DNA from: Achatina immaculata
Lineage: Eukaryota > Mollusca > Gastropoda > Stylommatophora > Achatinidae
Assembly (NCBI GenBank): GCA_009760885.1
Contig: CM019716.1
Span: 784,001 to 848,000 of the forward strand
Direction of reading: 5' to 3'
Length of the DNA: 64,000 bases
A program made the position numbers and the translations under genes. Shown piece after piece: positions 23,237 through 24,799 of this stretch (the first letter of the stretch is position 1; every line of letters starts with the position of its first letter). The notes under the pieces were generated by a model that was given only the letters and a program-made list of their open reading frames with translations, did not search any database and was not told the origin of the DNA.

Positions 23237-24799
23237 TTCTTCTTCTTCTTCGTTCACTTCTACCACCAAAAACCGCACTGTGAACCTACTGAATTCACGC
23301 ATGTGGTCCTCGTTAGGTCCCGTGGTCCCCTGTGTGGTACGAGTTCCACGAAGGGACCACAAGGGGTTCAGAGTATCACAGTGCTTTAGCCTGTATTCTT
23401 GGTGGGTCTCGGAAGTGGGATTGCGTGACACCGTGGTTTTCACTGCACCAGTTTGGTCTAGGGTTGGACTTTCTCACCGGAAGACCTCGACGTGTTTGGA
23501 ATATCAGTGCACCCCCGCTGGGTGAGAGGCGTTAGCCCACCCAGGCCAGAGTTGGACTTTCTCACCGGAAAACCTCGACGTGTTTTGAGATACCCGTGTA
23601 TCACCGCCGGGTGAGAGGTGGTTGCCCATCCAGTCCAGGGTTGGACTTTCTCACCGGAAAACCTCAGCGTGATTAGGATACGCAGACATCCCCGCCGGGT
23701 GAGAGGTGGTTGCCTATCTAGACTTCCCTGGTCCAGTGTCTCCGACTTCAGCATTTTGCGGTCGTGGCCGCTACCCTTCCTAGTTGTGACCAGGATGGAG
23801 CTTTTGTCCAGGAGGACGAATCCTCGCCACTAGTGACTTCTACCCCTGGGTTGAGCCGGTTTAGGCATTTCCCAGTATGGGCGTGTTTGGGACGGGACTG
23901 ACCTCTAGGGCAGAGGTACTGTGACATTCATAGCCTTCAAGATTCACCCCTGGTATGGGCCGGTTTAGGCAAAATTCAACAGTATGGGTGTTTATCAGGC
24001 GTTACCGACCTCTAGAGCGGAGGTGGCATGACATGTCTAGCCATCGAGTTCCACCCCTGGTGTGTGCCGGTTTAGGCATATTTCACCAGTGTAGGTGTAT
24101 TTCGGACGTAGGCGGCCTCTAGAGCAGAGGTGCCGTGGTATAGCTCTCGTAGCGATACTACTGGACATACCAGGTTAAACTTCACTTTCCATCACCTTTT
24201 CCCGTCGGCGCCGCACAGCAACCTTTATTTCCGCATTTACTTCCTTAACCGGGAGGAGCTTCACTCCACGCGCGGCATTTGAAAAGTCAAGCCAGCAGTG
24301 ACTTAACCTCTGGGACAAGCCGGTTCATGCGTTTCACCCGATATGACTGCACTCAGGACGTGGCTGACCTCCAGACCAGAGGTGCCGTGATTTGACTGTT
24401 TGCTTCGCTTTATTCTTTCAACCACCTTTTCCGCAGTGATGCTGCGCGGCAACCTCATTTGCAAATTTCTCCATTGGCCGGGAAGAGCACTGCTCCACGC
24501 ACGGCAGCTGAAGATCTCGTCAACAGCGAGAGATGGGCCAATTTCGAGACCATCGGTCGACAAAACCGTACTACATCGTTATCACGAACCTGGCTGGCTA
24601 GCCGTTTACATGCTTCGCTCGACGGACAAACCACTTGCTTCTGCATCGAAACACCTTAACTCTCGCCGTCCGGGAAGGGAGCGAAAGCCTGTCTCCCCAC
24701 GCACGGAACTCGAGAGCGCTTTTTCGCCAAAAGAATGGTCGGCCTGCGCAACAGCAACCGCCCGCGCTGTGCAGGTCGGCGCAGCTCTGCGCGGCTGAC
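23237..24799 (-). mobile_element. Modular non-coding retroelement, copy 2 (longest, inserted in hAT)
   Basis: Inserted into the hAT transposon at 22095-26388 with a 13-bp duplication GTTGTGGCCAGTC (23224-23236 and 24800-24812). The (TTC)n at 23237 is the 3' tail read from the minus strand. On the + strand three gamma modules start at 23463, 23551 and 23640 (spacing 88-89), and beta modules are anchored at 23855, 23959, 24066 and 24319 (spacing 104, 107, 253). The last gap holds a ~145-bp alpha block. The alpha block recurs further upstream, and the ~270 bp nearest 24799 is absent from the other copies. Short ORFs (up to 132 codons) occur on both strands with no family signature. Confidence 0.88.

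Follow-up and report, generated by a model that had tools for sequence, protein, structure and literature searches.

A young family of long, non-coding retroelements carries other RNAs, mostly pre-rRNA, joined to the 5′ end of some of its copies. In these composites a near-constant donor end meets varied acceptor positions, a single duplication mostly encloses the whole, and the joined forms arose several times on the tree of element bodies. The account that we consider probable is that the element depends on a LINE, and that the reverse transcriptase, at the 5′ end of its template, jumps end-to-end onto other RNAs, in most cases pre-rRNA.

Copies in the window

The window, the whole 64,000-nt stretch of DNA that was analyzed, contains three related copies of the element. 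The coordinates given in the initial annotation were confirmed, as were the (GAA)n 3′ ends, a separate flanking direct repeat for each copy (13, 13 and 11 bp), and the module numbers: copies 2 and 3 each have four beta anchors and three gamma units, and copy 1 has two of either kind. What had been read as an alpha module in the first ~271 nt of copy 2 is instead the start of a pre-rRNA leader. The features are as follows.

20584 to 20596, forward strand: 5′ target-site duplication of copy 1, 13 bp, GCTTAAACTCACA
20597 to 21489, forward strand: copy 1, of an older subfamily; the body starts bare with CTGCTGGCG and comprises one alpha, two beta, the linker, two gamma and the tail, with (GAA)n at the end
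20969 to 21075, forward strand: linker of copy 1
21262 to 21475, forward strand: tail of copy 1, for which a single long hairpin is predicted immediately ahead of the common 3′ end (z −4.0)
21490 to 21502, forward strand: 3′ target-site duplication of copy 1
23224 to 23236, forward strand: target-site duplication of copy 2, 3′ side, 13 bp, GTTGTGGCCAGTC on the forward strand
24799 to 23237, reverse strand: copy 2, whole, captured leader plus body
23237 to 24528, reverse strand: copy 2 body, which extends from +1 (CGCTGTTG) through (GAA)n
24529 to 24799, reverse strand: pre-rRNA leader captured by copy 2 as its 5′ terminus, covering leader positions +1 to about +271
24800 to 24812, forward strand: target-site duplication of copy 2, 5′ side
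40717 to 40727, forward strand: target-site duplication of copy 3, 3′ side, 11 bp, ATCTATAAGTT on the forward strand
40728 to 42038, reverse strand: copy 3, a bare body that has an additional G ahead of CGCTGTTGG, with all modules and (GAA)n
42039 to 42049, forward strand: target-site duplication of copy 3, 5′ side

Flanking repeats of this length are rare by chance: among 4974 random pairs of window stretches, three shared at least 11 bp and two at least 12 bp. Copy 2 also interrupts a hAT-type frame, and the removal of one duplication leaves a 70-codon frame open through the join, an independent sign that this copy is an insertion. The remains of the hAT-like transposase frame that holds copy 2 lie in pieces at 25671 to 22718 (reverse strand), as recognized by eye and with no Pfam match. 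The window also includes clean tandem arrays at 17211 to 18139 (39 bp units), 34699 to 35113 (49 bp) and 19344 to 19540 (32 bp).

Identity is about 97% between copies 2 and 3 and, compared by segment, 73–84% between these two and copy 1. Read in element sense, copy 1 has one alpha block and copies 2 and 3 have two; the order in the copy 2 body is alpha, beta1, alpha, beta2, beta3, beta4, linker, gamma1 to gamma3, tail. Beta units are spaced by about 104–107 nt, with an alpha block between the first two in copies 2 and 3, the linker is 107 nt long, gamma units are 88–89 nt, and the tail terminates in GTGAACG(AAG)n. Gamma 1 and 2 of copy 1 are 90% identical to their copy 2 counterparts, and by this comparison the modules correspond between the subfamilies. 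The linker is the best-conserved part between copies 1 and 3, differing at 3 of its 107 aligned columns as opposed to 118 of 762 in the rest of the alignment (Fisher p = 8e-5), and a 100-column stretch as clean appeared in 20 of 2000 permutations.

The view that no convincing protein is encoded held up: the single frame tested (123 aa) gave no Pfam domain and no homologue at E ≤ 0.001 among 5.8 billion proteins, and the copies, compared with 120 LINE proteins, reached no better than E = 0.03. A coding origin was rejected on the Pfam result for this frame and on the LINE-protein comparison. Rfam searches returned one sub-threshold match in window positions 20500 to 25000 at E ≤ 1 (SNORD87, E = 0.97, outside the copies) and none for copy 3 at E ≤ 5. 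No RNA polymerase III head (tRNA, 5S or 7SL) was found by ARAGORN or Rfam in the window copies, L017 or L019, no HDV-like ribozyme at body +1 by Rfam or by our own descriptor of its nested double pseudoknot (used without a positive control; a divergent ribozyme could have gone undetected), and no match in viral and prokaryote collections for the element motifs or LINE protein tried. The 3′ hairpin is predicted to be stable in all three window copies (z −3.9, −4.0 and −5.2), and the same region of copy 3 also scores z −3.2 on the opposite strand. A conserved RNA structure was rejected given this opposite-strand hairpin and single-sequence folds that left no region significant; the result of 0 of 5000 in a structure test is circular, the structure having been fitted to the same alignment.

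The genome-wide family

The search covered a 1.65 Gb genome of 145 contigs, window included. First-look candidates, unscored, numbered 6223 with copy 2 as query, 2270 with leader 1–707 and 1708 with head A (described below), and 40 were scored for each query. Sample 1 consists of 41 loci (30 and 11 from two rounds), in which L001–L004 ranked at the top since the query, copy 2, itself carries the leader. Sample 2 consists of 30 fetched loci picked for a leader that starts at +1 and extends to about 707, and is thus biased in its leader starts and toward junctions at or beyond 707. Some loci are repeated: L042 is L019, L071 is L008 and L061 is part of L060. L043 and L042 share flanks, as do L046 and L048, and L021 and L041 lie side by side.

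The three window copies belong to a young dispersed family, the bodies of which deviate from the consensus by 0.3–1.2%. Most often, a 173-nt head A precedes a body of about 1.31 kb that starts with CGCTGTTGG. The body starts at the identical base in 39 of 41 sample-1 loci; the other two are neighboring loci in which that base is changed. Upstream of it stands head A in 27 of the 41, pre-rRNA in 10 (6 of 37 when L001–L004 are left aside), 28S in one and flank in three; bare insertions from body +1 are L014, L035, L039 and copy 3. Head A has no Rfam match, and its status as a second captured RNA was rejected, given that the body follows it in 20 of 20 slices and that no free source was seen; these slices came from the 40 scored matches, 19 by exact motif and L086 by eye (one changed base). 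Head-A copies L021 and L041, about 1.8 kb apart and with the same changed base at the body start, are a local duplication.

Movement of a modular non-coding element by target-primed reverse transcription, as first proposed from the window, is borne out by the common 3′ end, the duplications and the many dispersed copies recovered with copy 2. Module number does differ in the older copy 1, but the body is one full-length stretch in 40 of 41 sample-1 loci, the exception being L041, which lacks the last ~220 nt. The idea that differing 5′ starts reflect truncation during target-primed reverse transcription is mostly unsupported: the 5′ ends fall into a few fixed structures, namely head A, a bare start at body +1, a pre-rRNA capture that begins at +1 or +64, and a 28S capture. 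The variation among starts comes from which RNA is attached at one fixed base.

Captured pre-rRNA leaders and their junctions

The head of L019 and L010 matches the eukaryotic SSU rRNA model (Rfam E = 1.5e-16 and 2.9e-16), and the leader found in copy 2 continues in these two loci into 18S rRNA. In long copies, about 487–490 nt precede the 18S start, a stretch that would represent the 5′ external transcribed spacer (5′ETS) counted from the polymerase I start. The leader begins with GTCAGCCGCG in all copies but L004 and L040; of 38 loci, most of them selected for a leader from +1, 36 have the leader start at +1 and two have it at +64. The +64 start of L004 and L040 is a possible second 5′ end of pre-rRNA. 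Leaders in the 30 loci of sample 2 run for 707 to 1727 nt to the body or to another leader (L060, L061 and L069). The leader sequence is 98–99% alike among copies, and the place of the junction varies.

The leader joins the body no more than 3 nt from body +1 in 37 of 40 pre-rRNA-bearing loci, three of the 40 being repeats. As for the other three, a 54-nt piece of head A lies at the join in L029, L061 shows part of L060, and the junction of L068 is internal. The acceptor places (37 loci, plus L029 via head A) form about 16 clusters between leader 274 and 1727. The last acceptor positions, repeats included, are 274 (3), 284, 525 (3, one via head A), 639 and 707–710 (13) at the low end; 820, 893 (2), 925 (3), 935, 1027 and 1157 (2) in the middle; and 1294 (3), 1343, 1485, 1502 and 1727 at the high end. 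According to the BLAST edges, 15 junctions are flush, 10 overlap by 1–3 nt and 12 have 1–2 extra bases, with C, TA and T among the bases seen. In L068, leader 1–941 runs into body position 749 at a stretch, AGGAAGG, that the two have in common, which points to an internal switch by sequence likeness with no end jump. L013 carries a ~60-nt 28S fragment at body +1, within the duplication (Rfam E = 1e-12).

This survey therefore places the donor side nearly always at the 5′ end of the template (body +1 or pre-rRNA +1), with a varied acceptor. Identical junctions recur at 274, 525, 707–710, 893, 925 and 1294, and thus preferred acceptor ends or the re-copying of chimeras also contribute.

Serial and composite insertions

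The initial annotation put the size of the element at up to ~1.56 kb; the element proper measures about 1.3–1.48 kb, and a chimera can reach 4.1 kb. The longest, L092 (the same as L060/L061), is one 4.1 kb insertion that reads leader 1–1154, T, leader 1–1154, T, leader 1–525, body, and is flanked on both sides by the 11 bp duplication GTTCTTGAATT; its two 1154-nt repeats may have arisen by later duplication. In L069, leader 1–710 is followed by leader 1–525 and then by the body. In L055, leader 1–1727 is followed by body 1–134 and then by LINE sequence from nt 861 that is 96% like the window LINE described below, and separate slices show LINE sequence to nt 3901 (98% like the window LINE) meeting an older body +1 within 3 nt; this locus was read in pieces, with its middle and 3′ end outside the slices, and a single insertion is not implied. 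Across L055, L109 and L110, leader, young body start, LINE and older body (89% identical) stand in series.

Most chimeras with both ends seen have one duplication around the whole composite. A duplication abuts the leader start and the tail in 10 of 12 loci of the first set (three of them the repeats L042, L043 and L071) and was not found in the other two. The second set has one in 11 of 16 loci (chance 7 in 3000), and L092 has one as well; among the five loci where none was found, one gave no match, two slices lack the tail, one match lies in LINE sequence and one off the tail. Among the 30 first-round loci of sample 1, 22 have a 9–13 bp duplication at the tail and at most 3 nt from the mapped 5′ end. 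L007, L010, L020 and L025 were not counted, the automatic match being a flanking repeat away from the end; the flanks share AGTTTCATGGT in L007 and GATGTGAGGATAA in L010, and L025 has 12 bp by another comparison. No duplication was found in L005, L011, L023 or L026.

Phylogeny of the bodies

A tree was calculated from 41 bodies (40 loci and copy 3), and clade constraints were evaluated with the AU test. A single clade was rejected for pre-rRNA heads (p = 9.2e-7), for head A (p = 2.7e-9) and for bare copies (p = 1.9e-4). One supported clade (96/93) unites L002 with pre-rRNA, L038 with head A and bare L039, and L003 (pre-rRNA) pairs with L005 (head A) at 100/94. The tree is shallow, with 7 of 37 inner branches starred, and the starred branches alone force at least four changes of the pre-rRNA label. 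Pre-rRNA heads thus arose several times on the body tree; gene conversion could also have mixed heads among bodies. The three loci with the 274 junction do not form one clade (p = 8.5e-5). L007 and L010, with the same junction, are sisters, and the four 710-junction copies of sample 1 are compatible with one clade (p = 0.29), so that some re-copying of chimeras is possible.

A candidate partner LINE

The window includes a decayed LINE that is likely the partner of the element, given the GAACGAAGAAG end common to the copies and the LINE and the joins of LINE and body in L055.

58003 to 62462, reverse strand: decayed I-group LINE with endonuclease, reverse transcriptase (RT) and RNase H, frame broken by stops, ending in GTGCGAACGAAGAAG...
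62463 to 62474, reverse strand: 5′ target-site duplication of the LINE, 12 bp, AGACAAAACGCT; the other copy is at 57991 to 58002

Its Pfam domains, in the order endonuclease, RT, RNase H, are those expected of an I-group (Ingi/Nimb) LINE. Ingi and Nimbus are the rows of the I superfamily in a gastropod table (PMC11203168), and in the part of a survey of molluscs considered here the clades of this superfamily are Nimb and Ingi, plus an unknown clade in octopus (PMC10294476). The best named relatives of the LINE protein are gastropod proteins, from Bradybaena similaris (67% over 91%) and Littorina saxatilis (58% over 100%), with seven further entries outscoring both; they are the reason for regarding the host as probably a gastropod. 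The LINE end GTGCGAACGAAGAAG... resembles the element end GTGAACGAAGAAG..., and GAACGAAGAAG occurs four times in the window, in the three copies and the LINE, versus 0.05 expected. The likeness extends over about 10 nt plus GAA (GAACG followed by (AAG)n, seen in one LINE), and the 3′ hairpin of the element is absent from the LINE (z +0.9).

The element was rejected as a deletion derivative of the single LINE family tested, past the 3′ end of which there was only a 14-nt match (E = 0.58 or more). The linker was likewise rejected as a LINE 5′ UTR: it has a 14-nt match, TGCTGAAGTCGGAG, yet 84 of 300 shuffles scored as high. In its upstream flank, the L067 chimera adjoins, on the opposite strand, a LINE copy about 90% like that of the window. 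Decayed LINE-like frames of another type lie at window positions 4933 to 6669, 11356 to 12558, 50063 to 52481 and 19691 to 20143, with RT confirmed by Pfam at 51765 to 52481.

Origin of the composites

Under the mechanism that we propose, element RNA, most commonly head A plus body, would bear the 3′ end that it has in common with the I-group LINE, and the LINE protein would start target-primed reverse transcription in the (GAA) tail. Head A copies would be the full-length products. A fraction of the RNA pool would have its 5′ end at body +1, by an internal start or by cleavage, and would feed the bare and chimeric copies. At the 5′ end of the template the reverse transcriptase would often hop end-to-end to an RNA in the same compartment, usually a pre-rRNA, which would be read through to its 5′ terminus; from there the enzyme could jump a second or third time, and the composite cDNA would integrate as one insertion. 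We infer the identity of the enzyme, the cellular place near the nucleolus and the origin of the body +1 RNA end.

It is unlikely, in our judgment, that element copies located within rDNA units were instead transcribed by polymerase I read-through into ETS/18S-element RNA and then retrotransposed. The start at +1 in 36 of 38 leaders and at +64 in the other two, in loci mostly selected for +1, would be expected from such transcripts, as would junctions shared by separate insertions. However, about 16 insertions into rDNA would be required, nearly all of them starting at body +1, the copies with the 274 junction are no single clade, and the joins of leader to leader at +1, the 28S fragment and the LINE sequence at the same base would all be left unexplained.

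RNA ligation has been proposed for chimeras of U6 and LINE-1. Ligation of pre-rRNA fragments to the 5′ end of body RNA before reverse transcription would be consistent with the nearly constant donor base and with recurring acceptor ends. We nevertheless consider it quite improbable, as the extra bases (C, TA, T) and the 1–3 nt overlaps at junctions suit a polymerase better, and L068 switched internally at a sequence likeness.

Finally, an ordinary SINE-like family with a few stable subfamilies, in which each pre-rRNA head was gained once and inherited and gene conversion accounts for the mixing, would fit the shared junctions, the sister pair L007 and L010 with one junction and the 710-junction copies compatible with one clade (p = 0.29), but is very improbable, since the body trees reject single origins of pre-rRNA heads, head A and bare copies, and the leader is 98–99% alike among copies while its junction varies.

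For end-to-end jumping of the reverse transcriptase, the preference for pre-rRNA suggests that reverse transcription takes place in or near the nucleolus. More tentatively, retrotransposition may be nucleolar or near-nucleolar, with a jump to nascent or partly processed pre-rRNA as a regular step, seen in 6 of 37 young copies of the less biased set, or roughly one in six, of which the genome would keep a record at base resolution; we regard this extended version as possible rather than probable. The captured rRNA across the genome would be a record of hops and, if this holds, of pre-rRNA 5′ ends, fragment ends and serial jumps in vivo. The jumping of LINE reverse transcriptases from end to end has been seen in vitro and in scattered chimeras, and here one young family seems to jump often, in series and for the most part to a single kind of RNA. 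The family makes the site of reverse transcription, acceptor preference and the joining of insertion 5′ ends directly testable, and illustrates how retroelements can acquire new heads. In such genomes, scattered stretches of 18S/ETS may also be a source of error for rDNA and barcode studies.

Comparison with known systems

As in SINEs, the copies are non-coding, dispersed and flanked by target-site duplications. SINEs are usually under 600 bp, and their known heads are tRNA, 7SL, 5S, 28S or snRNA. With a body of about 1.31 kb and a head A form of about 1.48 kb, the element is not short, and it lacks a detectable RNA polymerase III head. SINEs, including those of mollusks reportedly described by Matetovici in 2016, are also said to be modular, as it is, and LINE-dependent, as it probably is, with a 3′ end in common with a LINE, which the element may have too; its length of 1.3–1.5 kb, internal beta and gamma repeats and the absence of a tRNA, 5S or 7SL head in our searches set it apart. 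In an rDNA-derived (28S-type) SINE, rRNA would be the inherited head of the members; here the heads of sample 1 differ. The composites conform to template-switch chimeric retrogenes, with at least two RNAs in one orientation inside one duplication. Described likewise as non-coding composites with internal tandem repeats that are moved by a LINE, SVA and LAVA (PMC4432496, PMC7353768) differ from the element, likened to them by description only, in its (GAA)n end, I-group LINE and gastropod-like host.

In the portion drawn on here, the study of Magnaporthe grisea WEIRD/Mg-SINE/MGL retrogenes reports 33 bipartite and one tripartite, the function of WEIRD being unknown (PMC2104539). As in our family, transcripts there are fused directly via LINE template jumps with preferred switch sites, and the tripartite insertion has a 14 bp duplication, as the composites here have single duplications; unlike those chimeras, ours include pre-rRNA 5′ETS/18S and serial leaders, in 10 of 41 sample-1 loci and 30 targeted ones (PMC2104539). 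Mammalian LINE-1 forms chimeras with U6, U3, 5S, tRNA, 28S and other RNAs, and these resemble ours in carrying non-coding RNA on the retroelement 5′ end, often in the same sense and flanked by duplications (PMC13174262). The 28S chimeras number 18, with a median segment of 269 nt, and neither 18S nor pre-rRNA is mentioned in the main text of that study; here, in contrast, the leader reaches the pre-rRNA 5′ end and may be repeated (PMC13174262).

Earlier work on R2 by Bibillo and Eickbush is said to have described template jumping by the reverse transcriptase. Template jumping and non-templated extension by a non-LTR reverse transcriptase in vitro, as presented in the relevant part of one biochemical study, match the end-to-end jumps and added junction bases here, which differ in being a genomic record of a family tied to an I-group LINE (PMC8857657). 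In the titles and abstract openings of the literature searched, no description of 18S or 5′ETS heads on a retroelement family was found. Template switching is already known, whereas 18S/ETS capture on such a scale, with serial jumps, seems to be new.
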